Positions 3,973 to 53,517 of a stretch of 58,092 bases of DNA are shown here, piece after piece; within the stretch, counting starts at the first letter, position 1; each line of letters opens with the position of its first letter. The stretch spans positions 1 through 58,092 of IMG/VR virus record IMGVR_UViG_3300047585_000006. The stretch is one strand, 5' to 3'. Both the position numbers and the translations under genes were made by a program. The stretch comes from a virus. The notes beneath the pieces are model-generated. The model worked only from the letters and a program-made list of their open reading frames with translations. It had not been told where the DNA came from and did no database searches.

Positions 3973-4455
3973 TTACGTCACGACAAGATGCAACTGGACA
4001 TACTCAAGGTCCGGTGCGGTCGCGGTGCCCACAATGGTGATCGTGTACTTGCCAGCCGGAACGTCGGACGGTACGGTCACCGTGACCGTGCTAGACGTTG
4101 TATCCGGGTTCGGAGAGAACGAAAGCGTCACTCCCGCAGGTTCACCAAAATAAGTCAATTCTGCGGAATTAGTGCCCAAGAGATTTGTCAGATTGATGTC
4201 ACAACTTCCTGACGAACCGGGTTGAACAATGATGACTGGCGGCACCGTCTGCAAGAGGAACGAAACTTGATTGCCGAAATGAGCCGGACTAGGAATCCAG
4301 TCAACGGGGTTACCCGCCATGCGTGGATTCGATTGTGGCTCCGGGTTGCCGAACGGTTCATTGATCGGGCCTGCTACTGGATTGCCAAACACATGCCCCG
4401 CAGTCATCGGGGTTCCGTTTCTAAATCCTCCGCTTCTTACGAGTCCGCAAGGCAT
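3973..4455 (-). CDS. Virion protein with Ig-like beta domain
   Basis: The N-terminal third is Pro/Gly/Asn-rich with FGNP repeats. The C-terminal part (about residues 75-160) has the strand pattern of an immunoglobulin-like domain (VTLSFSPNPDTTSSTVTVTV, then VPAGKYTITIVGTA). Such domains decorate tails and capsids. The start overlaps the end of the upstream homing endonuclease gene by 19 bases. The native start may have been altered by that insertion; an alternative ATG is at 4407. Confidence 0.6.
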   Translation of the reverse strand: MPCGLVRSGGFRNGTPMTAGHVFGNPVAGPINEPFGNPEPQSNPRMAGNPVDWIPSPAHFGNQVSFLLQTVPPVIIVQPGSSGSCDINLTNLLGTNSAELTYFGEPAGVTLSFSPNPDTTSSTVTVTVPSDVPAGKYTITIVGTATAPDLEYVQLHLVVT

Positions 4456-5030
4456 CTGGTATCTCTTTCTAAGTAAATAGCCAATCGTCGCAAGACGTAG
4501 CCATCATCCTTCACATTTCCTAGAGCGAGGTTACAATATTGTCCTATAACCCCTCGAAAAGTCAATCGTATGTGGTCGTGGTCAAGGCACCAGTACCCAC
4601 AAGAATCTTTTCTACCACATGCTTGACAGAACCCATTAAAGGTTTCTGCGGCGTGTTTCGCTCTCGCCAACTCAGACTCAGACAATCCGGCTTTCCGCAA
4701 TTCATGAATCTGGCGTTCAAGTAAACACTTCGCACACGCCCGCCTTCCTTTGACGAGCGGACGATGTTCAACACAGCACGGGCACTCCCCGCTATTAAGA
4801 TGACGCCGATATCGTTCCTTAGACGCCGCAACATGGGGGGTGTTACACTGTAGGCATCGTACTTTACCCACAGACGGAGGAACTTTTCCGCAACGGGTAC
4901 AAAGCCCTGCGGCTTTGCGTCGTGCGGTACATCGACGAGTAGCATTATTCGCATTCCATCGAGTTGATCGTGCGATGATTTGTTCTTTATGCCCTTGATA
5001 GTATTGTGCGTCGGATTCTTTCTTTGTCAT
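4437..5030 (-). CDS. Free-standing homing endonuclease, endonuclease VII/HNH-like
   Basis: The start at 5030 is chosen because GGGAG lies seven bases upstream. Two CxxC pairs (CTRCGK and CPCC) precede the catalytic block LDHDHIRLTFRGVIG and the conserved tail NLALG...D...LRRLAIYL, the layout of recombination endonuclease VII-type (beta-beta-alpha metal) nucleases. It would cut DNA lacking the insertion and spread by repair. The gene has its own promoter (5051-5079) and ends inside the start of the next virion gene. Confidence 0.88.
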   Translation of the reverse strand: MTKKESDAQYYQGHKEQIIARSTRWNANNATRRCTARRKAAGLCTRCGKVPPSVGKVRCLQCNTPHVAASKERYRRHLNSGECPCCVEHRPLVKGRRACAKCLLERQIHELRKAGLSESELARAKHAAETFNGFCQACGRKDSCGYWCLDHDHIRLTFRGVIGQYCNLALGNVKDDGYVLRRLAIYLERDTRCLADS

Positions 5031-5050
5031 CGGTATTCTCCCAATCTTGT

Positions 5051-5079
5051 AGAATACCACAGTCAACAAGAATTGTCAA
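5051..5079 (-). promoter_or_regulatory. Sigma-70-type promoter for the 4437-5030 endonuclease
   Basis: The minus strand carries TTGACA (5079-5074), a 17-base spacer and TATTCT (5056-5051). It lies between the tRNA gene and the endonuclease start. Transcripts would also read into the tail fibre genes. Confidence 0.75.
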
Positions 5080-5088
5080 AAATTAATT

Positions 5089-5164
5089 TGGTGGACCGTG
5101 CTGGCATCGAACCAGCAACCTCTCGCTTGCAAGGCGAGTGCTCTCCCAATTGAGCTAACGGCCC
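5089..5164 (-). tRNA. tRNA-Ala (anticodon TGC)
   Basis: The minus strand folds as a complete cloverleaf. The acceptor GGGCCGT pairs with ACGGTCC (one G-U), the D arm is GCTC/GAGC, the anticodon stem is CTCGC/GCGAG with loop CTTGCAA, and the T arm is GCTGG/CCAGC with loop TTCGATG. CCA is encoded. It is the only tRNA gene I find in the window. No attachment-site duplication or integrase is visible nearby. Confidence 0.95.
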
Positions 5165-5246
5165 CTTTAAGCCCGCACATGCGGTTTGTTGCACGCCACG
5201 CACGCTGTAGGGCACCCGCAGTCATACCACAACCTCTGCAACAAGG

Positions 5247-5972
5247 TTAGCGTATTGACCGTAGTCCCAACCCGGTTAGCAACCCGGTTAGGAACCAATG
5301 GAATTTTGACTTGCGTGCGTCGGCCTTCAACTGCTTGACCTCCGCAGCGTGTGCAGTGTTGTCCGTCGTAATCTCATCCTGAAGATCAGTTATTGCTTTG
5401 TCCTTCGTCGCCAAGAGTCCGGTGGCCTGTGTGAGTCCAGCGGTCGTTGAGGACAACTGGGTCCGTGTATCTTGTAGATCATCCGTGCAGGTGTCGCCAT
5501 CAATCTTCGTCGCGGTGAACAACTGTAGATCGACGGTTGGAACGTCCGCACCATCGCTCGTCACGGTGATCGGAATCGGAAGAACGTATGCCGACTGGAC
5601 ATCAGTGACGGCTTGCGTCGGCGTCTTTGGAGCTTCGACCGCTTTGACGCGAGTTGCCGAGGCCGCATCTCGGGATGCGATGGCCACGACAAGTGACACC
5701 TCAAACGTTTGCCGAGCTTGTTCAGCTTGGTTAAACGACGCCTGCTGTGCAGCAAGCTGGGCCAACGCGGTGTCGGCTACAGACTTGGACTGTGCAGCGG
5801 CTTGTTCTGCGATATCGGCCTTCGTTGTCGCATCCGTCGCAGACTTGTCGAGCCAATGATTCCAACCATAGATTCCGAAAGACAAGACGAGGAACGTGAT
5901 GACGATTCTCTCATGCTTCTGGAGCCACGTCAACGGCGTGACTGTTGGTGTTACGGGTGCGGGTGTACTCAT
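5247..5972 (-). CDS. Membrane protein with coiled coil, spanin-like
   Basis: The 241-residue protein has an N-terminal Pro/Thr stretch, one transmembrane helix (about residues 24-40, IVITFLVLSFGIYGW), an Ala/Gln-rich coiled coil (about 50-105), and a second heptad-rich part (about 165-220). It ends in a basic-hydrophobic tail (KSKFHWFLTGLLTGLGLRS). This layout resembles inner-membrane spanins, but no partner o-spanin is seen, so the role in lysis is an inference. The next gene upstream is 5990-6346. Confidence 0.6.
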   Translation of the reverse strand: MSTPAPVTPTVTPLTWLQKHERIVITFLVLSFGIYGWNHWLDKSATDATTKADIAEQAAAQSKSVADTALAQLAAQQASFNQAEQARQTFEVSLVVAIASRDAASATRVKAVEAPKTPTQAVTDVQSAYVLPIPITVTSDGADVPTVDLQLFTATKIDGDTCTDDLQDTRTQLSSTTAGLTQATGLLATKDKAITDLQDEITTDNTAHAAEVKQLKADARKSKFHWFLTGLLTGLGLRSIR

Positions 5973-5989
5973 GACTCCTCCTACAGAGT

Positions 5990-6346: not shown

Positions 6347-6349
6347 GAT

Positions 6350-6733
6350 CTACTCCTTGTAATAGTAATGCTCTTTCGCATGACAATTCGCACAAAGAAC
6401 ATCACACTTCGCAATCTCTGTGACGAGCTTGGCTATATCGAGTCCCTGTGCCATCTTCCCGGACACCTTAAACTCTTTCTTTGATGGGTCTCGGTGATGG
6501 AAAGATAAACACGCCGGATGATTCTCAGGACACCGACCACACTTCAGCGTTTTCTTGTACTCCTGAAACCAAAGACGATTACGCTTTCGTGACTCGTTTC
6601 GTAAGGTATCTCGACATATCTTACAAGTACGATTCTGCTTTCGTCCTGACGCTGCATACTCTGGAGGAGTGTAAGTCGTTTCCGGCGTCCAAGGATGCCC
6701 ACGTTTGCATGTTTCTGATTGAGTCCAAGGCAT
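6350..6733 (-). CDS. Free-standing HNH endonuclease with zinc knuckles
   Basis: The 127-residue protein has three CxxC/CxxH-type metal sites (CKRGH, CKIC, CGRC). The HNH core follows: LSFHHRDPSKKEF, then a linker and CDVLCANCHAKEH at the C-terminus. This is the classical HNH form, distinct from the endonuclease VII-like copies elsewhere in the window. It sits between 6734-6925 and 5990-6346, with its start overlapping the upstream stop (TAGATG). It has no obvious promoter of its own. Confidence 0.85.
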   Translation of the reverse strand: MPWTQSETCKRGHPWTPETTYTPPEYAASGRKQNRTCKICRDTLRNESRKRNRLWFQEYKKTLKCGRCPENHPACLSFHHRDPSKKEFKVSGKMAQGLDIAKLVTEIAKCDVLCANCHAKEHYYYKE

Positions 6734-9399: not shown

Positions 9400-9726
9400 T
9401 TAAAGTTTACTACGAAGATACCCGAGAACTTCCCGGTTATCGCCCTTGATATCGTTCAAGGCATCTACAGCCTTCTCCAAAAACTCGATCTGTTGGGTGC
9501 CCTGCGATTGGAGAGTCGTCAGGCAATTGCTACGCTGAGTCGTCAGTTCTTTGTGAACGTCGTCCAGCTTCGTTGTCATCGCGTCCCATTTAGCTTTTGC
9601 TTGGCGGAATGGGTACGCGACCGCCGCGAGAAATCCAGTGACCATAAGGGTTACCACAACCTCGTGCTTGAACTCACTGAGGATCGGAAATGCGTAGTTA
9701 CTTGCTAGGGCTATCAGGTGAAGCAT
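9400..9726 (-). CDS. Single-pass membrane protein with coiled coil
   Basis: A transmembrane helix spans about residues 22-40 (HEVVVTLMVTGFLAAVAY). It is followed by a helical coiled-coil tail with one Cys. The first 29 bases overlap the 3' end of an HNH gene. A lysis accessory role is possible because the holin candidate is next upstream. Confidence 0.6.
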   Translation of the reverse strand: MLHLIALASNYAFPILSEFKHEVVVTLMVTGFLAAVAYPFRQAKAKWDAMTTKLDDVHKELTTQRSNCLTTLQSQGTQQIEFLEKAVDALNDIKGDNREVLGYLRSKL

Positions 9727-10261
9727 CGGGGGTTGTACCTTTCAAAAATTCCAGAAGAGCCTCCAACTCTTCGATGGTAGCATCTGGCTTCAGCCGATTT
9801 GCTCGATGGCTAATCACCCAGACATTACCCTTTACATAGCCCAAACTATTATCTTTGCGGTCTAACGAAGGAGAACATCCTGTCGTTGTTAGGCTACCGC
9901 GTTCTCTTTGAAGTGCTGTGCCAAGTATCGGACAGACTTCAGGAATTGATATGTCCGACAATTCAATGTCAAATTCCAATCCCTTTTCTTTCGCTCGCTT
10001 CTTGGCTGCATGCCACATCTGATATTCGGCAGTGTTCCGCAGCCCGTGACGATAATTAGGACTTTCGGAGCCTTTACATCTCCGTAGACATCCGCAACTT
10101 TTCGTATGTCCTGTCGATAACCGAGAAGCCACAAAGTCCTTGGTTCTCCCGCATTCGCAAATACATTTCCACAAATGCTGTCCATGCCTATTAAGTCCCG
10201 CCGTCCTGAGGACCTTGAGTTTGCCGAATACTCTACGACTTAGGTTGAGGGTTCTGGGCAT
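9698..10261 (-). CDS. Free-standing HNH homing endonuclease (DRKDN type)
   Basis: The 187-residue protein has an N-terminal zinc-binding DNA-recognition part (CICEC...SCGC) and the HNH core SLDRKDNSLGYVKGNVWVIS with following RANRLK. This is typical of phage HNH homing enzymes. It starts inside the holin candidate gene and ends 29 bases inside the next gene, so it was inserted at the junction of two lysis-region genes with coupling preserved. Confidence 0.88.
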   Translation of the reverse strand: MPRTLNLSRRVFGKLKVLRTAGLNRHGQHLWKCICECGRTKDFVASRLSTGHTKSCGCLRRCKGSESPNYRHGLRNTAEYQMWHAAKKRAKEKGLEFDIELSDISIPEVCPILGTALQRERGSLTTTGCSPSLDRKDNSLGYVKGNVWVISHRANRLKPDATIEELEALLEFLKGTTPDASPDSPSK

Positions 10262-10470: not shown

Positions 10471-10902
10471 TCATTTCAGAAACACCAATCCATTCATATT
10501 CGCAACGATAGGATGGCGTCGAAGTCCGTCAATACCAACAGAGTCTACCACTTTTTCCTTAAACCGAGGTTTTTCAATGCGACTCAACTCGCACCAGTAC
10601 AACGCACCTTTGCTAAGGTCGGGAATTGATCCATCGTAGATTCCATCCACCGCATGAAGCAGCTTGATGAATCCAGCGTCCCACACTGACGGGTGTTCTA
10701 GCTTGGGCAGTTCATTCTCAGCCATGAACAGAGGCACACGATCAACGATCTGCAACCACGATCCCCATCCGCATCTGACCCGATTAGATAAGGTGTGCAT
10801 AATCATTTGTCCCGCAATATGCCCCGCACCAACATAGCTTTGGCTAAAACGCCAACCAAGTTCTACGAGACGCCCTTGTATATAAAAATCCTGTTTAAGC
10901 AA
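10471..10902 (-). CDS. Possible cell-wall-hydrolase-like protein
   Basis: It starts with TTG behind AGGAGG. The central block (HIAGQMIMHTLSNRVRCGWG, then DGIYDGSIPDLSKGALYW) resembles phage SleB-type cell wall hydrolases in its helix pattern and spacing. I cannot identify the catalytic residues with certainty. The next gene downstream is the holin candidate. Alternatively it is a conserved phage protein of unknown role. Confidence 0.45.
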   Translation of the reverse strand: MLKQDFYIQGRLVELGWRFSQSYVGAGHIAGQMIMHTLSNRVRCGWGSWLQIVDRVPLFMAENELPKLEHPSVWDAGFIKLLHAVDGIYDGSIPDLSKGALYWCELSRIEKPRFKEKVVDSVGIDGLRRHPIVANMNGLVFLK

Positions 10903-11422
10903 AGAGTCCTCCTACCGATCTTGTGCGGGTCGCAGCAAAGTCACGCATTCGTTTAAGTTCTAGAGTAGAAACCTTACGTCCTTTCTTTGCTCGACTCATC
11001 GCCGCCCGTGACTCAGGAGTCCACACCCTTTTCTTGTTGCTCTCAGCAACCGAAGACCGAGCATTCGCGGAATGGGTTCGTCCGAAAAAGTGATTCAGCC
11101 TACCCGTCCGCGACTTTGACAACTTCGCTCGAAGTTCGAGAGACGCCACGAACCCGGAAGAACCCTCACCACCATCCGTAAGATTTCTTAAACAGCCCGT
11201 TCCGAGGTCGAGTCGTTCATAAAACGAAATGAAGAATCTTTCTAAGTCAAAGGCTTCTTGTTCGGATTCGCACTCTTGAAGAATAATCCGAGCCGTATCC
11301 GACGGCGGTCGTTGACGGTGTTTGTTTCGTATAAACGCACGAGTGCCATGACCTTTGCCAACATAGTACGGCGTGCCATCTTGCCGGAGCCACATGTACA
11401 CATAGAACCTGTGTTCTCCCAT
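10895..11422 (-). CDS. GIY-YIG homing endonuclease with NUMOD3-like repeats
   Basis: The GIY-YIG module is at the N-terminus: FYVYMW...YYVGKG, then the catalytic Arg-containing segment and Glu in AFDLERFFISFY. The C-terminal half has repeats of the type R-L-N-H-F-F-G-R-T-H and S-R-A-A-M-S-R-A-K-K-G-R, like NUMOD3 DNA-binding segments. The ATG must be at 11422, because the YVY strand starts at residue 7. No ribosome site precedes it and a promoter lies immediately upstream, so translation may be leaderless. Its end overlaps the next gene by eight bases. Confidence 0.9.
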   Translation of the reverse strand: MGEHRFYVYMWLRQDGTPYYVGKGHGTRAFIRNKHRQRPPSDTARIILQECESEQEAFDLERFFISFYERLDLGTGCLRNLTDGGEGSSGFVASLELRAKLSKSRTGRLNHFFGRTHSANARSSVAESNKKRVWTPESRAAMSRAKKGRKVSTLELKRMRDFAATRTRSVGGLFA

Positions 11423-18215: not shown

Positions 18216-18803
18216 CTATGTTTCAAGGGGCACGTAACTTATCGTCAGCAGAAGCCCGTTGATTGCAGCGGGGCCAGAGTTGATGACCGTGACATAGACG
18301 TTCTTACTTTGAATAGAATCCGAGTTCGATCCCACGATGTTCTGAGGTTGCCAAACAAACGGGGACGTGTCAAGGACTACGTCAATGATGAGGCCCTGAG
18401 TGGTTTCCGCTGGGGCCGGGGCATCCACACCCCGCCCAGAATCAGCCGTTTGGCCCGCAATGGAACCATACAGCCGAACACAGCATCCTTGGTTTGCCGT
18501 GATTGAGAGAATCTGAAAGGATTGGGACAGTACGACCGTTGTTTGTGCCGAACTGTTGCCCGCGATAGAAACGAATGTGGCAGACGCCGTCTTTGCCACG
18601 AGGTTGATAGAAGAACCAGATGATCCACCGCTGGATGACCCGCTGCTTGCACCACCAAATTCCTTTACCGTTGTGGTTCCCCCGGTTTGGGGGGTCAACG
18701 GCAACACGCGAAACTTGGGAGATTCACTCCCTTCAAATTGTCTGAGGCTGTCAACGTCGGCTCCGACCGGCGGCAAAGGACAGCGAATGTTAGGATTGCT
18801 CAT
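18216..18803 (-). CDS. Virion-associated beta-rich protein, 195 aa
   Basis: The ATG at 18803 is chosen because it begins the phage-like sequence MSNPNIRCPLPPVGADV, and the longer frame would run into the upstream HNH gene. A Gly/Ser linker (GGASSGSSSGGSSGSS, about 50-66) joins a short N-terminal arm to a beta-rich domain of about 125 residues. It is likely a tail decoration. Confidence 0.6.
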   Translation of the reverse strand: MSNPNIRCPLPPVGADVDSLRQFEGSESPKFRVLPLTPQTGGTTTVKEFGGASSGSSSGGSSGSSINLVAKTASATFVSIAGNSSAQTTVVLSQSFQILSITANQGCCVRLYGSIAGQTADSGRGVDAPAPAETTQGLIIDVVLDTSPFVWQPQNIVGSNSDSIQSKNVYVTVINSGPAAINGLLLTISYVPLET

Positions 18804-19203
18804 GAAGAGTTTTCCAGTCTCGAAGATACTTCGCAGCCGCTTCAAGAATGAGAGGATCGTCCATGAAACGACCCAGACCCGTGTTGCAATTCACACACAG
18901 TAAACCTCGGACTTTTTGCGTCTCGTGATTATGGTCAGTATGTGGTGCATCCAGTAAGCGTGAGCAAATCGCACAGCGGTTATTCTGTGCGGCCTTCTTC
19001 GCTTCATGTTCCTCGGGCGTTAACCCGTACGTTTTCTTGATGTAGTTGTCGTGATAAAAAGTCGGATTCAACCTATTGAACTCTTGAGTGCGTATGATGC
19101 AGCACGCCTTACACTCGTTGCGAGAATTCAGGTTATCCGACGTTTGAGCATGACCCCGCTTACAGACCTTTGGGATTTGTAAGCGGGGTTTTCTTTTCGA
19201 CAT
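18790..19203 (-). CDS. Free-standing homing endonuclease, endonuclease VII-like
   Basis: The 137-residue protein has N-terminal metal sites (CKRGH...CKACC), then YGLTPEEHE, the pair CAIC, the catalytic HTDHNHETQKVRGLLC and the family tail CNTGLGRFMDDP...AAKYL. It starts just after the tail tubular-like gene ends (19207) and its stop overlaps the next gene's start by 14 bases. Confidence 0.92.
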   Translation of the reverse strand: MSKRKPRLQIPKVCKRGHAQTSDNLNSRNECKACCIIRTQEFNRLNPTFYHDNYIKKTYGLTPEEHEAKKAAQNNRCAICSRLLDAPHTDHNHETQKVRGLLCVNCNTGLGRFMDDPLILEAAAKYLRDWKTLHEQS

Positions 19204-29218: not shown

Positions 29219-29240
29219 ATTTCTCCTATGAAAAGAAAAT

Positions 29241-33036: not shown

Positions 33037-33073
33037 ATCTTCATGACACAACCTAGCTAATAGCTGCAATTTG

Positions 33074-35912
33074 TTACTCGCCTTGCGGCGGGATAAGACA
33101 TTTCTGCTTACCTCTCATAGTTTATCATTTCCTATGAGATCAGACTATCGCATCACACTTTCGTGTGTTCTCTCGCTTAGTCGTTCAGGCTGCCTTGCGG
33201 CTTGCCCCTTGTTGGCATTTCAGCGTCCAAGTCAATCAGAGAGAATTTATACCGCCCCATTGTATTAAGGCGGCGTCAATCTGTCGCATACGGATGGTGG
33301 TATCAGGACCAAGAGAGGTCGTGAAATGCACCCGATACGATGTCCCACAAATTCAGATCAACAACCCGGACAGACGATTATCCGGGGATCAGCCCTTCAG
33401 GATCAGCAACAGTCGGTTCAGCATTCTGCGGGTGTTACCTAGACTGTTAGTAAGGGTTAGTCATTTCTGCTAACCTCTCATACTTACTTTTCGTATGAGA
33501 TCGGACTATTGCATCGCCTTACGGCGTCTTCTCGCTTAGTCTCTCAGCGTACCTTTCGGCTTCGCCCTCGTTGGCATTTCAGCGTTCGAGTCAATCAGAG
33601 AAGATTTTACATCGTCCAGTTTGTTAAACGATGTTGCACTTGATGTTTCGCCAATCGCCGTCACCGTAGGTGGTGTCGTTCTGGGCACCCAGATTGATTG
33701 AGAAGATTCCGTCCTTACCGAAAATGTAAGTGCGGAGTGCCGTCAGACCAGTGACGCCCTTGTAGTTCGAGGTCTTCGTTACAAGGTTCGTCTGGAAGAA
33801 ATGAACTCCGGTTGAAGGCAGTTCAATCACTTCCTCAAGGTCAACGCTGACCAGTTCGTCCATCTTGGCTTGGCCCACCGGAGTGTGCTTCAAGATGTCG
33901 ATTGGAGAGTCGTTGCTGTTATCAGCAAGCACGTCACCCAGAGCGAACGGGTGTATGTAATTGTGTTTGGGTTAAATCGGAAGATTTCCGAACCCTACAT
34001 CACTGTAGGTACGCTCTCATTGTCACCAATGAGTTCAGACTCTATCTTGACTTCTTGCGAAGTCTCTTGCGTATTAGTCGTTAGAGATGACCCACGTTTG
34101 TTCAGTGTTTGCATTTTCCCCAGCAATTCTTTTCGTTTCGCTGCGAGAGTTTCGTCAAAACCGTTGTTGTGCGGAAGCCTGATATACTGAAGGGCTATAT
34201 TCGCCTGCTCTTGTTTGATTACCAGATACGGTAGAATCCCCAAGAGCAACTGCTCACTGTTGGTTCGTCCTTTTGGACGCCAGCCATAAGCAATCTTGTG
34301 TTTCAGATTTGCACGACGGTGATGATAGTATTGTCCACCAAAGTGCTGTACGAGCCACTCCATCAAATCGAGATTCGTATTTGTGACTTCGATACGAATC
34401 GCAGTTGAATCATAAGGACTGCCGTTACTCGACAACCCCTTATGGTGGTAGATACTGAAAGTGCCTTCACCATCAAACATTCCGGCCAGATACGACCAAT
34501 ACACCTTGTCAGGTGTTTTCATAGGTTCTTTCCTCGGTATTTTCTGCTTCGATTCTAATCTAACAGATGTTCACCGATATAGCAAGATTTTTTAACGTTG
34601 GAGCCATACTCTACGCATGTGCTGCGTAGGCTTTGGTGTTAACCCCAACGAATGCTTTGGATGCTTCGTCAAACGGACGGATCGAGCGACCTGCCATCGA
34701 CTGGACAGAGTTACGAATCTGGCTCAGAGACAGTGCAGTGAAGCTGGCCGTGGTCGAAGCAGCAAGCTGCACGAGCACGGAAGCGTCAATGCTGGACGCA
34801 CCGTCGGCGGTTGCACGCACAAGTGCGGACAGGGACTCGCCCAGACGGTAAGACATTTCCTTCGCAACGTTCTCGACGGTGTTGTCAATCGTGGTAGCGA
34901 GAGACAGAGACGAGAAGTTCGCGTAATCTGCGTACTCACCAATGGTCGCGGTGGTAGTCAGAACGCTGATGGACAGAGACGATCCCACAGTCCCTTCCGT
35001 AGTCGGGTTCGTGTTCTGGGCCAGAGGGACGTACATAAACCAATTGTGTTTTGGGTTTAAGGCAGAAAGCCCCCTAGTTCACACTAGGGTCGCTCTACAT
35101 ATCACTATGCAGTTCAGACTCTATCTTTACGACACTGGCGTGTCGATGTTTGACGTATTAGTCGTTGGGGATTCCACATCTTCATCGTACTGGTGGAGAC
35201 TTTTCATTTTCTCCCACAGTTGATAACGTCGTTCAGGATTTTCAACACCTGTCATACGAACGTATTCAAGAGCCGTCACTGCCTGCTCTTGTTTAATTAA
35301 CAGGTATGGTAGGATTCCAAGAAGAAAGGCTTCTACCTTCTTGTGACCCCCTAGGCAAGACCATTTGAAGCATTGTCTTTTCCCTAGTTTTCCGAGAGAG
35401 ACTTCATAGAAATCTCCACCGAAATACCGAACCATCCATCGCATCAACCGCTGAGACGTATTGATTACTGAAATCTTAAGATTGTAATTGTAGTAAGGCG
35501 TGCCTATTTTAGTTTCAGCACAAACCCTACTGATACAAATACATCCTTCGCAATCAACCGCCATCGCTGCCATAGCGAGTTTGGTTTTATCCTGTGTCAT
35601 TATCATGATGTGGTCTTTCCTCCGTCTTGTCTACATTATAGATATTAACGGATATAGTCAAATTTATTTTTAAGTACGGGACTATCATGTAATCTCGTAC
35701 TGGTTACCAGACTTCATGGGGAGGTCGAGGCGTTCCGAACAACGTACGAACGGAGTGTTAGCCTTCAAATTCTCCCTGAATCGCTTATCGTAGTACTTCC
35801 ACCACGATGATTCTTCTGCGGAAATCGAACTTCTCCCAACGTCTGTTTACGGCAAAGTAACCGTGGATTGGGGGAGGTTGGACAACTGATTGCCCGCAGG
35901 CGAAAATGACAT
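33074..35912 (-). CDS. Major capsid protein (N4 gp56-like), split into five exons by four group I introns
   Basis: Join on the minus strand: 35912-35692, 35040-34641, 33956-33627, 33429-33267, 33098-33074. The joined protein is about 350-366 residues. It reads MSFSPAGNQLSNLPQSTV (exon 1), KYYDKRFRENLKANTPF, then across junction 1 SGNQYE-M-FMYVPLAQNT, ATIGEYADYANFSSLSL, across junction 2 KAFVGV-IHPFALGD, across junction 3 IKCNIV-QNAEPTVADPEG, then TSYRVHFTTSLGPDTTIRMR, and across junction 4 QIDAAF-LIPPQGE. This corresponds, from memory, to the N4-gp56-type capsid family. GAAAGG precedes the ATG. Two interruptions remain: TAA at 35849-35847 (codon 22) and a 38-nt stretch 33381-33344 starting with TAA. 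The scaffold-position gene lies directly upstream. Confidence 0.82.
33099..33266 (-). ncRNA. Group I intron 4 in capsid gene, ORF-less
   Basis: The intron is 168 nt. The P1 helix pairs exon CCGCCUU with intron GGGGCGG and puts U-G at the 5' splice site; the intron ends in G. Core elements are visible: a P3/P7 segment CGACUAAGCGAG, a GAAA-capped P8 hairpin (CACAC/GUGUG), GAUAGUCUG for P7 3', and a P9 hairpin (CUCAUAG/CUAUGAG). The sequence is closely related to intron 3 (same blocks GCTGAAATGCCAAC, ACTAAGCGAGA, GAGAGGTxAGCAGAAATG). Confidence 0.8.
33430..33626 (-). ncRNA. Group I intron 3 in capsid gene, ORF-less
   Basis: The intron is 197 nt. P1 pairs exon ACAUCGUU with GACGAUGU (eight pairs, U-G last) and the intron ends in G before CAGAATGCT. 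The core contains GCTGAAATGCCAACGAGG, GAGACUAAGCGAG, a GUAA-capped P8 (CGCC/GGCG), AAUAGUCC and a P9 stem (CUCAUAC/GUAUGAG). Relative to intron 4 it has about 30 extra bases after the P9 region. Confidence 0.8.
33995..34522 (-). CDS. LAGLIDADG homing endonuclease in intron 2
   Basis: A single LAGLIDADG motif lies near the N-terminus (YLAGMFDGEGTFSI, about residues 12-25), so the enzyme should act as a homodimer. Further family signals are VTNTNLDLMEWLVQHFGG and ILPYLVIKQEQANIAL. The 3' end of the gene overlaps intron core structure. It has its own promoter (34557-34585) and a good ribosome site (GAGGAAAG). It presumably targets the intronless capsid allele. Confidence 0.92.
   Translation of the reverse strand: MKTPDKVYWSYLAGMFDGEGTFSIYHHKGLSSNGSPYDSTAIRIEVTNTNLDLMEWLVQHFGGQYYHHRRANLKHKIAYGWRPKGRTNSEQLLLGILPYLVIKQEQANIALQYIRLPHNNGFDETLAAKRKELLGKMQTLNKRGSSLTTNTQETSQEVKIESELIGDNESVPTVM
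34557..34585 (-). promoter_or_regulatory. Promoter for intron 2 endonuclease
   Basis: TTGCTA (34585-34580), a 17-base spacer and TAGATT (34562-34557) lie inside the intron, just ahead of the endonuclease ribosome site. Confidence 0.5.
35127..35606 (-). CDS. LAGLIDADG homing endonuclease in intron 1
   Basis: The 159-residue protein has one LAGLIDADG-type motif (LAMAAMAVDCEGCICI, about residues 10-25). It also has the conserved blocks ISVINTSQRLMRWMVRYFGG and LLGILPYLLIKQEQAVTALE, closely parallel to the intron 2 enzyme. GGAGG lies 11 bases before the ATG, and a promoter is inside the intron. Confidence 0.92.
   Translation of the reverse strand: MIMTQDKTKLAMAAMAVDCEGCICISRVCAETKIGTPYYNYNLKISVINTSQRLMRWMVRYFGGDFYEVSLGKLGKRQCFKWSCLGGHKKVEAFLLGILPYLLIKQEQAVTALEYVRMTGVENPERRYQLWEKMKSLHQYDEDVESPTTNTSNIDTPVS
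35635..35661 (-). promoter_or_regulatory. Promoter for intron 1 endonuclease
   Basis: TTGACT (35661-35656) and a perfect TATAAT (35640-35635) are separated by 15 bases, slightly short. It lies inside intron 1 directly upstream of the endonuclease. Confidence 0.55.
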
Positions 35913-39683: not shown

Positions 39684-41684
39684 CTAGCCGAACAAATCCT
39701 GCAAGGGGTCGTTCGCCGCGTACGCCGCGTCTTGAGCAGCTTGTTTTACTATAGTGCTTGGGTCCATCTCAGGAAACTCAAGGGCAACATTTTTGATGTT
39801 GAACTTTGAATATTGTCCCAACCCATAGACTTGGTCGTAGAACGACGTGCCCTTCGGGTCCGGCTGGTAGTCGGTACTCGCCGCTGTCATCTTCGCTTCG
39901 ATGTCTGCGTAACTTCCAAACTCTTGAACGAGAATCGCCAGCGAATCGACAATGTCGTCGTGCGTGGCAGAGGCCGTTCCGAACTTCGACAACTCATCAT
40001 AGAGTTCATCGAGGCCGGGGCAGGAGTTCACAAACTTGAGACGATCATCTCCGAGGAACCGTAGAACGGGGCCAGCCTTGGTGATCTTCGACTTGGTCTT
40101 GTTTCCTTGACCGAGTCCAACCAACCGTACAGGAACTCGCACCTTGAGCTTATCCATCTCGCGGTACGTCTCACGCTGAACATACTTCTCAGCCTTGCCC
40201 GTGTCCTCAATGCAAATCGTCTTCGGCTTCCATTGGAGAGCCGTCGCCGCAATCATCGCCGGGAGCGTGTATTCGTCGTAACGACCACGCTTCATGTCGA
40301 TGATGTAAAATCGTCCGCCGTAGATCAATGCCGTAAGGATGACTGTGTAGTCGGCCCACGACTTAGTCGAATACGCGGTGTCGATTACTGTGACGATCAT
40401 CCCGGTGCCGGGAACGTCAACGGCGTTCACAGTCTTGCGAATCAGAAGCTCCCGAGGGAACTTGATGACGTGCATCTGTGTCGGATCGTTGAGGTACTTG
40501 ATCGCAAAGTAAGGATCAGTTTTTCGCTTGGTGTTTAAGAATTTGAAAGTGAGGGCGTGCGGGTTATCGGGATCGTTGAACCAGTATCCATAATCCTGTT
40601 CCAACATCTCCTCAGTAATCTTACCCGCTTGACGGGCAGCCTCCGTCATCCACCAAGCTGCACGGATATAAATCTTTGTCGGAAAGTCTTCCCCATCTTC
40701 CGCGAACTTTTTCTGGTTCTTTATAATCTGGCCGTAAACATCTTCTTGGTCGTACCAAGTACCGATCAGATCGTAGAATCCGTAGGGGTGAAGCATAGCT
40801 TGGTTGATACTAACCTGCTTGTTAATGTTCTTCATGCGGTCAGTTGTTTGAGAATTTTCGTTGGTTACCACGTCGTCGAGTTTCAGAACCCCTACGTGCC
40901 ATCCAGTAAGGTTTTGTTCAATAGACGCAGCGAATACTGTCGGTTCTTTTTCTTTAACCGAAACGGCAGGAGTCTGGTATTCAGAACTCTTACCATCGTC
41001 GGGAGCGATACAGTGCTCAGGAAATAAAACTTGAAACATACTCACAGAGCCGTCAGCCATCGTGCGGGGGCGTAGCGGCTTCTTACCAAATAGGGTAGAG
41101 TCTCCACCTTCTTCGAGAGTAAAATGTCCTTTGATTTCTCCGACGAAGTCATTCGCCAGAGCAAGAACGCCAGTCAACACGAGGATGGTAACTTCGGGCC
41201 AGCACGCAATGTACTGTACGCAGTCAGCCATATCCATAGAACTCTTAAACCCGCCGCGAGGGACGAGCAGAAGTCGTTCTTTTTTGTCGATATATTGAGT
41301 CGCAAATTCTTTGAAGGATTTTCGGGTAGGGTCTTTTCTTACGAAAAATTCGTTGCAGATGCTCTCGTGAACCGTGTGCGTCGTGCCATCTGTCCAGACA
41401 TACTCACGGTCGGACATATCTTTATAAGTCTCAAGCAATTTGCATAGAGCGAAAAGGTTTGTCTGGGCTAAGAAGCGATATTGAAGAACTAAGTCTAGCT
41501 CCTCTACCTTAAATCCCCCAAACTTAACCGCTGTAAGGCCAATTTTCTCAGTGTGTCCGTGTAGTACTCGATCCCAACTTTTTTCAGCAGCATCTTTGAA
41601 GGCTGTATCCGTCAGGTTGCGGTACTGATAATTCTTGTCCGTCCGATGTTTCGTAAACCAAATCGCCAGTTGTTCCTTCGTCAT
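39684..41684 (-). CDS. terL: Terminase large subunit
   Basis: The 666-residue packaging motor has a Walker A variant VPRGGFKSS (141-149), Walker B VGVLKLDD (264-271), and a C-terminal RNase H-like nuclease with VIDTAYS (Asp435), CIEDT (Glu493) and HDDIVDSLA (575-583, Asp580). It translocates DNA through the portal and cuts concatemers. No small subunit is recognisable in this window. Its first 101 bases overlap the 3' end of an inserted endonuclease gene in a different frame. Confidence 0.95.
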   Translation of the reverse strand: MTKEQLAIWFTKHRTDKNYQYRNLTDTAFKDAAEKSWDRVLHGHTEKIGLTAVKFGGFKVEELDLVLQYRFLAQTNLFALCKLLETYKDMSDREYVWTDGTTHTVHESICNEFFVRKDPTRKSFKEFATQYIDKKERLLLVPRGGFKSSMDMADCVQYIACWPEVTILVLTGVLALANDFVGEIKGHFTLEEGGDSTLFGKKPLRPRTMADGSVSMFQVLFPEHCIAPDDGKSSEYQTPAVSVKEKEPTVFAASIEQNLTGWHVGVLKLDDVVTNENSQTTDRMKNINKQVSINQAMLHPYGFYDLIGTWYDQEDVYGQIIKNQKKFAEDGEDFPTKIYIRAAWWMTEAARQAGKITEEMLEQDYGYWFNDPDNPHALTFKFLNTKRKTDPYFAIKYLNDPTQMHVIKFPRELLIRKTVNAVDVPGTGMIVTVIDTAYSTKSWADYTVILTALIYGGRFYIIDMKRGRYDEYTLPAMIAATALQWKPKTICIEDTGKAEKYVQRETYREMDKLKVRVPVRLVGLGQGNKTKSKITKAGPVLRFLGDDRLKFVNSCPGLDELYDELSKFGTASATHDDIVDSLAILVQEFGSYADIEAKMTAASTDYQPDPKGTSFYDQVYGLGQYSKFNIKNVALEFPEMDPSTIVKQAAQDAAYAANDPLQDLFG

Positions 41685-41910
41685 GCAGCCTCTTCCACGC
41701 TTCCACGTAGGCGGCTGCTTTGCGAAGCAGTTCAGGAGAATCTTTCAAGCATCCAACGCCCGCATTACACAAAGGACAAAGAATGCTACGAGTTCGATTC
41801 GTCTCGTGGTCATGATCCGTAGACCATCCACGACCTCCGGGTTCAGTTACGCCGCATAGACCACAACAGCGACCTTGGGCTTCAAACTTCAACTCCCATT
41901 CCGTTTTCAT
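41584..41910 (-). CDS. Free-standing homing endonuclease, endonuclease VII-like
   Basis: The compact 108-residue protein has CGLCGVTEPG, GWSTDHDHETNRTRSILC, CNAGVGCLKDSPELLRKAAAYV and a C-terminal tail that overlaps the terminase gene by 101 bases. AGGAG precedes the ATG and a promoter lies at 41928-41956. Confidence 0.9.
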   Translation of the reverse strand: MKTEWELKFEAQGRCCGLCGVTEPGGRGWSTDHDHETNRTRSILCPLCNAGVGCLKDSPELLRKAAAYVEAWKRLHDEGTTGDLVYETSDGQELSVPQPDGYSLQRCC

Positions 41911-42577: not shown

Positions 42578-42876
42578 TACGCCCCCGGCATCGGTGAAGG
42601 AGCCGCAGTCATCTGTGCGGGCCCGCCCGCATCAGGAGCCGCTGGAGCCGCTTCGCCCTCATTCGGCGTGCCCGCGTGCATCTCGTTGTGGGCAGAGACA
42701 TCCGCGAGATTGTCCATGACATGCGTCTCATCCGGGTGTTCTTCAGGATGGTGGTGCTTGTGGGTCATGATGTGCTTACCATTATGACTTTTTGTGTGGC
42801 TTATCTCCTTGATTTCTTTTTTATGTTTCGGTCGTGGGGATATTTTCGCCATTGCTTCAGCTGGAGAAAACGACAT
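42577..42876 (-). CDS. His/Pro-rich hypothetical protein, 99 aa
   Basis: The ATG at 42876 follows AAAGGA; the longer frame would overlap the HNH gene entirely. The product has a His-rich centre (HIMTHKHHHPEEHPDETH) and an Ala/Pro-rich C-terminus. Metal binding is possible. No family. Confidence 0.55.
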   Translation of the reverse strand: MSFSPAEAMAKISPRPKHKKEIKEISHTKSHNGKHIMTHKHHHPEEHPDETHVMDNLADVSAHNEMHAGTPNEGEAAPAAPDAGGPAQMTAAPSPMPGA

Positions 42877-43282
42877 TGGATTCCTTTCTTTTCCGCTCAA
42901 CATATTCGGCGGCTTTACGAAGAAGCTCCGGGGAATCCCTGAAACTTCCGAGGGCCGTGTTACACCGATGACACAGAAGTCCTCGGATACACTTGCCACA
43001 ACTCTTCGTTCCTGAACAGCAAGAGTGGTCGTGGTCAATAGCGGGCGTTACGTCAAACACGTCTTCGCATAGAGCACATGAATTATTTTGAGTTACGGAC
43101 ATCTCCACAAATCTCTGAAACGTAATGTTAAAGTTCTGTTGAAGATGATACGTACGACGATACGCGTCTTTTTCCGTGCGGTGCGTACTCCGATAGTTCT
43201 TGTCGTACTCAGACTTTTCGTCCCGCTTTTGTTCCACACGGGCGTGATCGTACGCAGCCTTCTTTTCTTTCGACATCGGCAT
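42857..43282 (-). CDS. Free-standing homing endonuclease, endonuclease VII-like
   Basis: The start at 43282 has AAGGAG upstream and lies after a terminator. Motifs: CALCEDVF, AIDHDHSCCSGTKSCGKCIR (with a Cys-rich insert), GLLCHRCNTALGSF and RDSPELLRKAAEYVE. The stop lies 20 bases inside the next gene. Confidence 0.9.
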   Translation of the reverse strand: MPMSKEKKAAYDHARVEQKRDEKSEYDKNYRSTHRTEKDAYRRTYHLQQNFNITFQRFVEMSVTQNNSCALCEDVFDVTPAIDHDHSCCSGTKSCGKCIRGLLCHRCNTALGSFRDSPELLRKAAEYVERKRKESNVVFSS

Positions 43283-43306
43283 AGCGGTTCTCCTTAGCAT
43301 AGAATT

Positions 43307-43329
43307 GGGCGGTGTGCTAAGCACCGCCC
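43307..43329 (-). terminator. Terminator after phosphatase gene
   Basis: The 8-bp stem GGGCGGTG/CACCGCCC is followed on the minus strand by AATTCTATG. Immediately before it is a second hairpin, 43330-43352 (TAGATGG/CCATCTA, loop containing TTAATTA), which includes the phosphatase stop codon. Confidence 0.7.
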
Positions 43330-43349
43330 TAGATGGGTAATTAAGCCAT

Positions 43350-43871
43350 CTATTTATCGAAAAATCGGGGTAGTTCTCTCCACCGAGTCCTTGCATGAGC
43401 ACGCATACCGACACCGGGATCATAAGGCGGATACAGAGTACGAAATTTCTTTTCAGCGGCAATGAAGCCTTCTGGCATTTCCCCAATAGTTCGGAGAAAC
43501 ATCAGCATCATAGTCGGGCCGCGAGTGTGGCCTGCGACACAGTGCGAGAGAACCGTCTTGCCCGCGTCATATCTGTCTTTCAAAAATCTCAATCCAGCGT
43601 CTACCACTTTGGCCGGAATCATCTCGGGATCATCCACGTCGATGAGGTTCAACGCCATGTGATCTTTATCACTCTGGACGAAATAGTAGTCATCACCGTC
43701 TTTTGGTGCCCCGAGAGTCGTATAACCGAGAACTGTTCTATGGCAATCCGATGTGCCGTCCTTACAAGCAGCGAGTACCGAGTAACCGCGTCTGTTAGCT
43801 TCTGGAACGCCTTCCTTGTCGCCCACCCACAATCGGTCGATGATCTCGTGGAGAATTTTCTTGTATAACAT
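43350..43871 (-). CDS. Dual-specificity/tyrosine phosphatase-like protein
   Basis: The 173-residue protein contains the Cys-x5-Arg signature HCVAGHTR (110-117; Cys111, Arg117) in the standard context TVLSHCVAGHTRGPT. An upstream acidic loop (LIDVDDPEM, about 77-85) could provide the general acid. The size matches small dual-specificity phosphatases. Targets could be host proteins or phosphorylated sugars or nucleotides. It overlaps the upstream gene by 77 bases. Confidence 0.85.
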   Translation of the reverse strand: MLYKKILHEIIDRLWVGDKEGVPEANRRGYSVLAACKDGTSDCHRTVLGYTTLGAPKDGDDYYFVQSDKDHMALNLIDVDDPEMIPAKVVDAGLRFLKDRYDAGKTVLSHCVAGHTRGPTMMLMFLRTIGEMPEGFIAAEKKFRTLYPPYDPGVGMRAHARTRWRELPRFFDK

Positions 43872-48415: not shown

Positions 48416-49087
48416 TTATCCCCTGTTGTTCCAGTCTATAGTTAATCCGTCCTTCGCATACTTTATGCGTTGTGGTTGGTTCGCTATACGCTGGTTAATT
48501 TCATCTTGCGTCATGCCGTGATTCGCCATCGGGTAAATCACGAGTGGCCGAACTTTCGGCAGAGCTTGGTACGGATACAACTTCTTCAGAGCTTCGACAA
48601 CTTGACCGTCTGCTGAATAGTCACAATTGTCAGGGAACTTGATGCCCGTGTCCCGGCGATAGATGAACATTGCAGACCCGGTCAAACCAATGCCGGGAGG
48701 ATCACGATGTTCCCTCTTGCCCCGAGCGAGTACCGGATAAATTGCCCATACCCAGGTAACACACTCCAGCGTTCTGAGAACATCTGCGTCTGCATAGTAA
48801 TCGTCGTCATCAATCTGGCAGATGAACTCGCCGGATGTCAGATCGAACGCTTCGCGTCTTGCGAAGTTACCAAAATCTTTTGGGTGTTTCGTGCGTGAGC
48901 AAGCAACGATCTTACGTCGCGGGTCTTTCTTAATCGAATCGAGAACGGCCTGCTCTTTGCGGGTGATGACACAGTCGGTGACGATTATGTGCTCCCACGA
49001 GTCGGAACTCTGACTGTCGATAGAGTCGCACAAACGTTTGAGTGTCGGTCGGCAGAGTGTAGGAGTGATAATCGAATATCTAGGCAT
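48416..49087 (-). CDS. Glycosyltransferase, GT-A (family 2-like), with terminal DGLTIDW peptide
   Basis: The start at 49087 follows AAGAGG. The N-terminal nucleotide-sugar domain is clear: YSIITPTLCRPTLKRLCDSI, then ICQIDDDDYYADADVL with the DxD-type metal motif (about 95-100), and an acceptor-side segment. The C-terminus ends KYAKDGLTIDWNNRG. It would transfer sugars onto DNA, virion proteins or host glycans; the acceptor is unknown. Two further glycosyltransferase-like genes lie upstream. Confidence 0.82.
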   Translation of the reverse strand: MPRYSIITPTLCRPTLKRLCDSIDSQSSDSWEHIIVTDCVITRKEQAVLDSIKKDPRRKIVACSRTKHPKDFGNFARREAFDLTSGEFICQIDDDDYYADADVLRTLECVTWVWAIYPVLARGKREHRDPPGIGLTGSAMFIYRRDTGIKFPDNCDYSADGQVVEALKKLYPYQALPKVRPLVIYPMANHGMTQDEINQRIANQPQRIKYAKDGLTIDWNNRG

Positions 49088-49487
49088 TGGAATGCCTCTT
49101 AACGTATTCGATTGCACGCTGCATCAACTCGATATCATCACCAAACATGCCCAGCCCACTGTTGCACGCACGACACAACATTTCACGAACTTTCTTAGTC
49201 GTATGATCGTGGTCAACAAACAACTTTTCGCACGGGCGTTTACAGAGGCTACAACGACCATCTGCGTCCTTCAACATTTTCTCATATTGTTGAGGGGTTA
49301 ATCCGTAACGGATGCGAAGGTGCCAATTCTTGATCCCCTCCGCAATTTTGATTTTCGCAACCGTCGTATTTTGAGTTGCCTTCTTACAAGTCTTACAATA
49401 CCTTTGTCCCGTTGCGGGACGTTGATAAGTGTTCTCGGGCGTAAGTTCGTGTCCCTTGAAACAGTGGGTACGTCGTTTTCCTGCCAT
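49080..49487 (-). CDS. Free-standing homing endonuclease, endonuclease VII-like
   Basis: Motifs: CFKGHELTPENTY...CKTCK, YGLTPQQYEKML, CSLCKRP, FVDHDHTTKKVREMLC and CNSGLGMFGDDI...AIEYV. AGGAG precedes the ATG. It is inserted between two glycosyltransferase genes, its stop overlapping the next start by eight bases. Confidence 0.92.
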   Translation of the reverse strand: MAGKRRTHCFKGHELTPENTYQRPATGQRYCKTCKKATQNTTVAKIKIAEGIKNWHLRIRYGLTPQQYEKMLKDADGRCSLCKRPCEKLFVDHDHTTKKVREMLCRACNSGLGMFGDDIELMQRAIEYVKRHSNA

Positions 49488-51168: not shown

Positions 51169-51582
51169 TTATACCCGTCCCTCTGCTTTTCGTCGTGCCA
51201 TCAACCACACCATTTCATCGAACGTAAGCGTATCCCGTTTGATATCATTGCATTCTGCACAACAGGGAGCGGAGTTTTCAAGGGTATATCCGAGAGTGTT
51301 ATCTTTGCGGTCAACGCCATGTCCAAAATCGGGTAGTATCCGGGAACAGTAACTGCAGATACCTGTCGATATGATGGCTGAATATTCATCAAGAGTTATG
51401 GAAACCTCAAGACTTCGTCGCAACGCTCCTTGAATTAGAATTTTGAATCGGGTTTTGAGTGAGGGTTTGTAACCTGATTTGCGACAGTTACTCGGCCACG
51501 AAGCCCGGAGGACCTTGTATCGCTCTGTTTGACGATATTTTCTACCGTGTTGTATCGCATCATCATGGTTTTTATAGGCCAT
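51169..51582 (-). CDS. Free-standing HNH homing endonuclease (DRKDN type)
   Basis: The 137-residue protein has an N-terminal basic helical part, CSYCSRILPDFGHGVDRKDN, TLGYTLENSAPCCAECNDIK and a C-terminal helix (LTFDEMVWLMARRK). It starts just after a long hairpin (51603-51636) and ends about 40 bases before the glycosyltransferase start. Confidence 0.9.
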   Translation of the reverse strand: MAYKNHDDAIQHGRKYRQTERYKVLRASWPSNCRKSGYKPSLKTRFKILIQGALRRSLEVSITLDEYSAIISTGICSYCSRILPDFGHGVDRKDNTLGYTLENSAPCCAECNDIKRDTLTFDEMVWLMARRKAEGRV

Positions 51583-52369: not shown

Positions 52370-52388
52370 GTGTCCCTCCACTGAAACC

Positions 52389-52417
52389 AGAGTAACACGT
52401 CCACTACTGGATTGCAA
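52389..52417 (-). promoter_or_regulatory. Leftward promoter for 52369 and following genes
   Basis: TTGCAA (52417-52412), a 17-base spacer and TACTCT (52394-52389) on the minus strand, 20 bases before the ATG of the first leftward gene. Back-to-back with the rightward promoter. Confidence 0.65.
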
Positions 52418-52441
52418 GCAAAAGTTTTTCTGAGAAAAAAC

Positions 52442-52470
52442 TTGACAAGCGTGCGGCACTAGGGTAATCT
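52442..52470 (+). promoter_or_regulatory. Rightward promoter for replication genes
   Basis: TTGACA (52442-52447), a 17-base spacer and TAATCT (52465-52470) on the plus strand, 72 bases before the first replication gene. With the leftward promoter it forms a divergent control region of about 170 bases, the likely early switch point. Confidence 0.8.
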
Positions 52471-52541
52471 GGTTATGTGGACGAGCAGTAGTGTGTCCGC
52501 TGTAGTACCCATTCGCCTATTGAGGCAGAAAAGAGAATCAG

Positions 52542-52952
52542 ATGAGCAAAGTTGTAATCAAGGATAAGATTTATGAACAAATGTCCGAAGGTCTGCACAA
52601 CGTGATTATCACGAAGTACGATGACCTCGGCCTGCAAGACACGCAGTTTGGCACCAAGGACCGCGTCCGCATCGTGTTCCAAGCTCAGGATCAAAAGGAC
52701 AGCAAGACCGGAGAGCCGATCAACGTCTTCATGACCGCGACCAAGTCCCTCCATTCCAAATCCCAGCTTGGCAAGTTGCTGGCGACCCTGAAGATTCCCG
52801 CCGGGGCCGAGTTCGACATGGATGACCTCGTTGGCGTCAAGTGCCAAGTCGTGATCCAGCATAAGGAGAGCGAGGGCAAGACGTACGCCAACATCGCTAC
52901 CGTGCTGCCCCGCACTGCTGCGGCTCCCGCCAAGGTTGCAGAGAACTTCTAA
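52542..52952 (+). CDS. OB-fold/ssDNA-binding-like replication protein
   Basis: The 136-residue protein has the strand order and tail of small phage single-stranded DNA-binding-like proteins: EGLHNVIITKYDDLGLQDTQ, RVRIVFQAQDQ, SLHSKSQLGKLLATL and DDLVGVKCQVVIQHKESEGK, with an Ala/Pro C-terminus. It is the first gene of the replication operon, before primase-helicase and polymerase, which supports the role. Binding is inferred. Confidence 0.6.
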   Translation: MSKVVIKDKIYEQMSEGLHNVIITKYDDLGLQDTQFGTKDRVRIVFQAQDQKDSKTGEPINVFMTATKSLHSKSQLGKLLATLKIPAGAEFDMDDLVGVKCQVVIQHKESEGKTYANIATVLPRTAAAPAKVAENF

Positions 52953-52975
52953 CCGTCAAGCCCACCGTGTACTAA

Positions 52976-53008
52976 ATAGACGCCTTCGGTGCCAATCGAG
53001 GCGTCTAT
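52976..53008 (+). terminator. Terminator-like hairpin before the endonuclease
   Basis: A 10-bp stem ATAGACGCCT/AGGCGTCTAT is followed by GTTTATTGTT on the plus strand. It would reduce read-through from the first replication gene into the endonuclease and primase. Confidence 0.7.
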
Positions 53009-53028
53009 GTTTATTGTTCGGAGGTTGG

Positions 53029-53517
53029 ATGACGGCGAAAGAACGAACCCGCTTATGGAGATTAGCCAACCCTAAGCGTGCGAGGGAATCGTGCAAAAAC
53101 TGGCAAAAGAAAAATCGGGAACGAGTTGCTGCGGCGAATAAAATTTGGCGTACCCGAAACGCTGCAAAAATTAAACGACGCCGCCAATTAGATGCTCCTC
53201 GACAAAGACAAAACAAAAAGATGTGGGCACTCAATAATCCTTTCAAATTGAAGATGGGCTACGTTCGTCGAATGTTACGACGTGCAGGATGTCCCGAGAT
53301 TGAGATCACAAAGGCGATGCTTGCATGGGCGGCATTCGCAGGAATATGTCACGCATGTAACACCGCGTGTTCCCGAGTTTGGGTAACCGATCACGATCAC
53401 ACAAAATTAACCTTTCGGGGAATAGTCGGAAATGGTTGTAATCATGCCTTGGGTAAAGTGCAATACGATCCCAATAGGCTTCGTGCGTTAGCATCGTATC
53501 TAGAAAGCCACTCATGA
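53029..53517 (+). CDS. Free-standing homing endonuclease, endonuclease VII-like
   Basis: The ATG at 53029 follows GGAGG; the longer frame starts before the terminator. A basic N-terminus (MTAKERTRLWRLANPKRARE) leads to CHACNTACSRVWVTDHDHTK, LTFRGIVGNGCNHALGKV and RLRALASYLES. It resembles the 4437-5030 enzyme in its catalytic block (RGVIG/RGIVG instead of RGLLC). The stop overlaps the primase start (ATGA). Confidence 0.9.
   Translation: MTAKERTRLWRLANPKRARESCKNWQKKNRERVAAANKIWRTRNAAKIKRRRQLDAPRQRQNKKMWALNNPFKLKMGYVRRMLRRAGCPEIEITKAMLAWAAFAGICHACNTACSRVWVTDHDHTKLTFRGIVGNGCNHALGKVQYDPNRLRALASYLESHS

Follow-up and report, generated by a model that had tools for sequence, protein, structure and literature searches.

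The window analyzed here is a stretch of 58,092 nucleotides (nt) that spans the whole of a linear IMG/VR record of 58,092 bases (IMGVR_UViG_3300047585_000006), and it derives from a soil phage, a relative of the acidobacterial phage Tunturi_3, whose DNA many homing endonuclease genes have invaded. Its major capsid gene (35912–33053, minus strand) is interrupted by six inserts of 60, 651, 684, 198, 34 and 201 nt, which we mapped with a purpose-built spliced protein-to-DNA alignment (Table 1). Removal of all six yields a capsid protein of 343 amino acids (aa) without stop codons, matching the intact gene of a relative (L002) in which capsid is a single open frame. Both LAGLIDADG endonuclease genes of the window sit among these capsid fragments.

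On their predicted secondary structure, the four longer inserts are group I introns, with the core P3-P4-P6-P7-P8-P9 present. An alignment of 16 introns lacking an open reading frame (ORF) contained 42 core pairs, including those of P7, which were 99.3% paired and 29 of which showed two-sided covariation, while 28 of 38 core pairs covaried in an alignment of 24 LAGLIDADG-bearing introns. Covariance model R1 was trained on both ORF-less window introns, so its scores for them lend no independent support. In introns 1, 3 and 4 the U that precedes the 5′ splice site pairs with a G in P1, and the last nucleotide is G; intron 2 has a P1 of 9 bp and a P10 of 5 bp, and its last nucleotide is A, not G. 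No intron in the window was recovered by Rfam at the gathering threshold, and a relaxed search of the whole window gave weak matches only, to the two LAGLIDADG introns. As the default threshold misses all of these introns, the capsid genes of such phages appear broken in standard annotation.

The two short inserts belong to a class that we call mini-introns and surveyed among relatives of the window phage. We aligned 98 distinct capsid genes, 42 of which carried inserts by spliced alignment, a few of them artifacts. The aa-2 insert of L150 and the L135 capsid were left out (poor alignment or degenerate), and 21-nt inserts in L088 and L106, considered as candidates, proved to be ordinary in-frame indels. 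After these exclusions there were 26 distinct mini-introns of 32–98 nt, at nine or more sites and in capsid genes only. All 26 display a P1 of 5–9 bp with a U·G at the splice site, a P10 of 4–8 bp in standard register and a terminal G, pairings that exceeded those of shuffled mini-introns (p ≤ 0.008 each, most at the floor of 5 × 10−4). An in-frame stop occurs in 25 and the remaining one shifts the frame. Neither model R1 nor Rfam found anything resembling a catalytic core in them. Because they are only 32–98 nt long and give no core match, the mini-introns are not complete group I introns, but look like substrates of one. At several sites (aa 20, 22, 52 and 53) a mini-intron in one phage matches a full intron in another, a correspondence which suggests that mini-introns are full introns that lost their core.

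Each mini-intron lies directly upstream of a full intron in all 19 distinct insertion patterns (label permutation, p = 1.4 × 10−6), separated from it by an exon of 20–215 nt, usually 41–60 or 95–112 nt. In the window, the partner of mini-intron 1 is full intron 1 and that of mini-intron 2 is full intron 4. A further locus, L212, which was retrieved later with the sequence pattern of one mini-intron site, shares the window's arrangement (mini, full, full, full, mini, full), thus obeying the rule twice, with one mini-intron at a new site where P1 and P10 are readable. Full introns behind a mini-intron have a median P10 of 1 bp compared to 5 bp in other full introns (p = 2 × 10−7; site-collapsed p = 0.012), as expected if the partner must wait. 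In addition, the 3′ segment of many mini-introns, including mini-intron 2 of the window, pairs with exon sequence immediately beside P1 of the partner (rank along the whole capsid mRNA, Kolmogorov–Smirnov p = 1 × 10−9; site-collapsed Fisher p = 6 × 10−5). Within the aa 313 to 330 family, this mini-intron–partner pairing changes on both sides in L130.

Closely related phages reveal how these elements travel. L133 and L041 are ~99.5% identical over several kilobases, but L133 has three capsid inserts that are absent from L041. The exon between mini-intron and full intron differs at 17 of 107 positions, compared to at most one difference in the 95-nt exon just upstream of the mini-intron and 7 of 761 beyond the full intron. 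This middle exon therefore arrived together with its flanking inserts, and the alignment indicates that mini-intron, middle exon and full intron moved into L133 as one unit. A tract of the same kind distinguishes L018 from L051. Overall, 710 of 756 middle-exon residues (94%) are identical to L002, with nucleotide differences distributed 92/49/388 over the three codon positions. By this measure middle exons are under coding constraint, which requires them to stay in the mRNA.

The anatomy of the mini-introns, their pairings, their strict order and their transfer as cassettes are all legible in the DNA itself. The explanation that we favor, and consider probable, is that mini-introns are group I introns unable to splice on their own, which the neighboring ribozyme would excise in cis, in an endonuclease-invaded phage related to Tunturi_3. 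With nearly the same confidence, we propose that they represent a natural class of satellite group I introns of 32–98 nt, which would consist of a guide and splice sites with no ribozyme, be excised in cis by the ribozyme of the next intron (whose own removal would be delayed) and spread with that partner as a homing cassette.

For excision at the RNA level, use of the neighbor's core and the order of the reactions, we infer the following scheme, the most parsimonious account. A mini-intron keeps only the parts of a ribozyme substrate: a U at the end of the 5′ exon, a guide strand, a 3′ segment and a final G. Its guide strand pairs with the 5′ exon to form P1 and with the first nucleotides of the following exon to form P10, and the 3′ segment in many cases pairs with the exon beside the 5′ splice site of the next intron. 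The full intron 20–215 nt downstream would supply the catalytic core and dock P1 and P10 of the mini-intron, so that its ribozyme would remove the mini-intron in cis first and then itself. The strong P10 of the mini-intron would compensate for a 3′ splice site untied to the core, and the weak P10 of the partner would delay the partner's own departure. Mini-intron, middle exon and full intron would spread together by homing.

Several observations weigh against this scheme. An exact search for a contig with the spliced junction of L018 found none, and spliced alignment detected no mini-introns in portal or terminase genes, although some portals contain full introns. A clear tether to the partner is missing from several mini-introns (for example, L148, L147, L022 at aa 313 and mini-intron 1 of the window), and intron 2 of the window lacks the terminal G. 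Relatives share ancestry, meaning that cells and sites are not independent, which inflates statistics counted per sequence; the site-collapsed tests are weaker. The data that first drew attention to the P10 contrast and the tether also served to test them.

Of the alternatives, the one that survives best, though it is unlikely, is that the mini-introns are excised by whichever group I ribozyme is present in the infected cell, acting in trans. In Escherichia coli, introns of 64–100 nt are removed in trans by engineered group I ribozymes (PMC4094466), and mini-intron-carrying genes also hold other full introns. However, the strict mini-then-full order, the short spacing, the weak P10 in the direct partner, the pairing beside the partner's splice site and the transfer as one cassette all point to the adjacent intron. 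Considerably less probable is that mini-intron, middle exon and full intron together form one long intron from which the middle exon is skipped, as in Twort orf142. Tandem group I introns are known to behave in this way in Twort and Coxiella, where two adjacent elements likewise cooperate across a short exon, but both of those introns have cores and the exon is lost (PMC10136302), whereas here one element is coreless and the exon must be kept. The protein sequence encoded by middle exons is conserved, with changes mainly at third codon positions, and the P10 of the mini-intron pairs with the start of the middle exon rather than with a later one.

A slightly poorer prospect still is translational bypassing, in which the ribosome would hop over the short inserts. 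Their size is similar (30–100 nt), and in mini-intron 2 of the window a stop directly follows a GGA codon, just as GGA immediately precedes the stop at the bypass element of T4 gene 60. Yet bypassing of the gene 60 type calls for take-off and landing codons that match and so keep the protein intact, whereas most junctions here split a codon, and only joining at the RNA level restores the conserved W at the aa 313 junction and M54; moreover, P1, P10 and the terminal G would have no role, and every mini-intron precedes a group I intron. Least credible of all is a decaying pseudogene or assembly error, for although the window is a single metagenomic contig without a near-identical twin, the inserts are found again in numerous contigs of different sample origin, at nine or more sites, the frame is intact after their removal and the helices are paired.

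If splicing in cis by the neighboring ribozyme is correct, one ribozyme serves two introns, and an intron that carries its guide but no core relies on shared catalytic RNA. This is the division of labor by which the spliceosome and degenerate group II/III introns are proposed to have arisen, and we did not find it described for group I introns in nature; likewise, no report of coreless natural group I introns was found in the open-access literature, with subscription journals outside our coverage. According to a 2017 review, group I ribozymes in nature splice in cis, and the trans designs are presented there as products of engineering (PMC6155759). By analogy, the arrangement is best read as a natural counterpart of the spliceozyme, an engineered Tetrahymena group I ribozyme shown to perform an analogous intron removal in E. 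coli (PMC4094466, PMC4509937). In both, a group I ribozyme removes, or would remove, a short coreless intron via guide duplexes at both splice sites, and longer substrate duplexes improved spliceozyme performance (PMC4094466, PMC4509937). The spliceozyme is engineered, acts in trans, carries the guide strand itself and binds the 3′ site through P9.2 (PMC4094466, PMC4509937), whereas mini-introns are natural, are proposed to be spliced in cis and carry their own guide with P10. The proposed system would be short, abundant and testable in vitro.

The full introns resemble known phage group I introns (T4 td, Twort orf142 and those of Bastillevirinae) in their P3–P9 core, the U·G at the 5′ splice site, the terminal G and, in some, an endonuclease gene. 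Twort orf142 is cited as having three introns in one gene (in PMC10136302); in the window, by contrast, a single 1-kb gene holds four full introns as well as two coreless inserts, and some LAGLIDADG-bearing full introns of this group end in A. The mycobacteriophage LittleE also contains a group I-like intron with a putative LAGLIDADG frame in its major capsid gene, for which efficient splicing was found by PCR with reverse transcription (PMC3706429), but this is one intron without coreless inserts in an unrelated phage.

Other features of the full introns emerged from the relatives. LAGLIDADG-type introns ending in A, where G is near-universal, comprise intron 2 of the window and those of eight other loci (L012, L018, L095, L148, L150, L154, L164 and L171); their junction is fixed by P1 and P10 (usually 4–9 bp), and the G-binding pair of P7 looks unchanged. 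The LAGLIDADG gene of intron 1 (35127–35606), located at aa 53, has 91–92% identical copies at aa 89 in L006 (8127–8600) and L022 (8460–8927), and the presence of so similar a gene in introns at two capsid sites implies transfer of the gene or intron between sites. L091 and L058, which are 99.6–99.97% identical, differ by a single 567-nt capsid intron that was recently gained or lost. In several relatives the portal gene, too, harbors ORF-less group I introns of ~190–230 nt (L006:3093–3289, L006:3354–3579, L022:4184–4382 and L026:12800–13005); several low-quality 'introns' at the ends of portal and terminase genes were rejected as alignment artifacts.

A search with the first 25 kb of the window revealed no close DNA-level match among cultured phages. 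Its capsid protein shares 81% identity with the counterpart in Tunturiibacter phage Tunturi_3, a cultured phage of the acidobacterial host X5P2 with a circular genome of 97.6 kb, annotated with one endonuclease VII (EndoVII) and one HNH gene. Contigs of uncultured relatives reach 97–99 kb and carry 0–14 EndoVII genes each, and a heavy load is therefore not unique to the window within the family; the family is variably invaded, and the window probably comes from a strongly invaded member. Because the record is linear and its relatives are of this size, the window is probably part of a larger genome, which removes the basis for a preliminary description of this DNA as a smaller genome than those of T4-like phages. 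One contig binned as a Bacteroidetes metagenome-assembled genome (L188, PSRA01000113.1) encodes a 91% identical capsid protein and is probably a co-binned phage contig.

We independently re-derived the endonuclease genes using a six-frame PF02945 search, motif scans and Pfam and PHROG searches, revealing nine EndoVII, five HNH, one GIY-YIG and two LAGLIDADG genes (Table 1). These 17 genes, 15 outside introns and two inside, total 8,793 bp or 15.1% of 58,092 (one per 3.4 kb), exactly reproducing the number, classes and density given in the preliminary description, and family matches in Pfam and PHROG bear out its statement that at least four types are present. All nine EndoVII proteins exceed the Pfam cut-off for PF02945 and contain DH.H and the zinc cysteines, while the five HNH proteins have no Pfam match to an endonuclease and were assigned through PHROG endonuclease families only (2 × 10−34 to 7 × 10−6). 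None of the 17 candidates had a non-endonuclease family as its best match in Pfam or PHROG, the outcome that the preliminary description had named as contrary to its claim. It had also likened the invasion to that of T4-like genomes, and the density here in fact exceeds that of T4, which has 15 homing endonuclease genes occupying ~11% of its coding capacity (PMC2988022). In both phages many such genes lie between conserved genes and some in introns, but those of T4 are GIY-YIG and HNH only (PMC2988022), whereas the window's are mainly of the EndoVII type.

Table 1 Features of the capsid gene and endonuclease genes in the window ('empty', relatives in which the junction of the two neighboring genes lacks the endonuclease gene; HTH, helix-turn-helix)
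Feature	Coordinates	Strand	Evidence and remarks
Major capsid gene, seven exons	35912–35860, 35799–35692, 35040–34642, 33957–33627, 33428–33380, 33345–33268, 33066–33053	minus	spliced alignment
Mini-intron 1, 60 nt	35800–35859	minus	in-frame stop; P1 5 bp, P10 6 bp, terminal G
Full group I intron 1, 651 nt, LAGLIDADG inside	35041–35691	minus	RF00028 26.6 bits, E = 5e-4 (3-kb search), below gathering score
Full group I intron 2, 684 nt, LAGLIDADG inside	33958–34641	minus	RF00028 28.9 bits, E = 1e-4, below gathering score
Full group I intron 3, 198 nt, no ORF	33429–33626	minus	model R1 203.6 bits (training-set member); covarying core P3–P9
Mini-intron 2, 34 nt	33346–33379	minus	in-frame stop, length not a multiple of 3; P1 7 bp, P10 4 bp, terminal G
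Full group I intron 4, 201 nt, no ORF	33067–33267	minus	model R1 200.5 bits (training-set member); covarying core
EndoVII	4437–5069	minus	PF02945; downstream of tRNA-Ala; empty-site comparison not possible
HNH	6350–6733	minus	PHROG_2255 8e-25; empty in L200
HNH, DR.DN motif	9698–10261	minus	PHROG_3322 2e-34; empty-site comparison not possible
GIY-YIG with NUMOD3 motifs	10895–11422	minus	NUMOD3 E = 8e-11, GIY-YIG itself sub-threshold in Pfam; empty in L191
EndoVII	18790–19203	minus	PF02945 6e-20; empty in 5 loci
HNH, DR.DN motif	23671–24174	minus	PHROG_1035 2e-11
EndoVII	27016–27618	minus	PF02945; empty in 14 loci
EndoVII	28757–29254	minus	PF02945 2e-18; empty in 60 loci, homologue in 11
EndoVII	29974–30645	minus	PF02945 70 bits; empty in 89 loci
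HNH, DR.DS motif, N-terminal HTH	32361–32984	minus	PHROG_1035 7e-6 (weakest of the five HNH), HTH_23; empty in 37 loci
LAGLIDADG in intron 2	33995–34522	minus	PF00961 1e-5; PHROG_5046 6e-24
LAGLIDADG in intron 1	35127–35606	minus	PHROG_5046 2e-13; no Pfam match
EndoVII	41584–41910	minus	PF02945 60 bits; empty in 17 loci
EndoVII	42857–43486	minus	PF02945 8e-18; true start probably downstream; empty in 19 loci
EndoVII between two glycosyltransferase genes	49080–49487	minus	PF02945 5e-22; empty in L015, L189
HNH, DR.DN motif	51169–51582	minus	PHROG_1035 5e-12; empty-site comparison not possible
EndoVII between DUF669-like and primase genes	52936–53517	plus	PF02945 6e-10; empty in 8 loci

For each of the 15 genes outside introns, we compared the junction of the two neighboring genes in relatives. 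Empty junctions were found for 12, those at 4437, 9698 and 51169 not being comparable; the preliminary description had proposed such a comparison with related phages. Different endonucleases occupy the same junction in different phages: the glycosyltransferase junction holds EndoVII in the window and GIY-YIG in L008 but is empty in L015 and L189, and the DUF669-like/primase junction holds EndoVII in the window and L194 and HNH in L189 but is empty in eight loci. Viral scans with the glycosyltransferase and with a 1,486-aa protein returned no relatives, and the empty sites in these regions are therefore based on loci retrieved by other routes. This presence and absence supports mobility of the endonuclease genes, whose products are presumed to be active.

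Individual genes showed additional features. A single tRNA-Ala(TGC) gene (5089–5164) lies directly upstream of the EndoVII gene at 4437–5069. The HNH gene at 32361–32984 lies just downstream of the capsid gene, and a link between it and introns at the capsid 3′ end was weak (4/10 versus 6/64) and is not claimed. The EndoVII frame at 41584–41910 overlaps the terminase gene (39684–41684, first-ATG start) by ~100 nt, probably because the start of one or the other is wrongly placed. A dual-specificity-phosphatase-like gene (43350–43871) lies upstream of the terminase gene and is conserved there in relatives and Tunturi_3. Finally, the 5′ end of the HNH gene at 23671–24174 (24174–24100, MPNTLQANGAQPPKPTK) duplicates, in diverged form, the beginning of the gene that follows (23667–23590, MPNAMQAAGAQPPKPTK), as if the start of the host gene had been captured.

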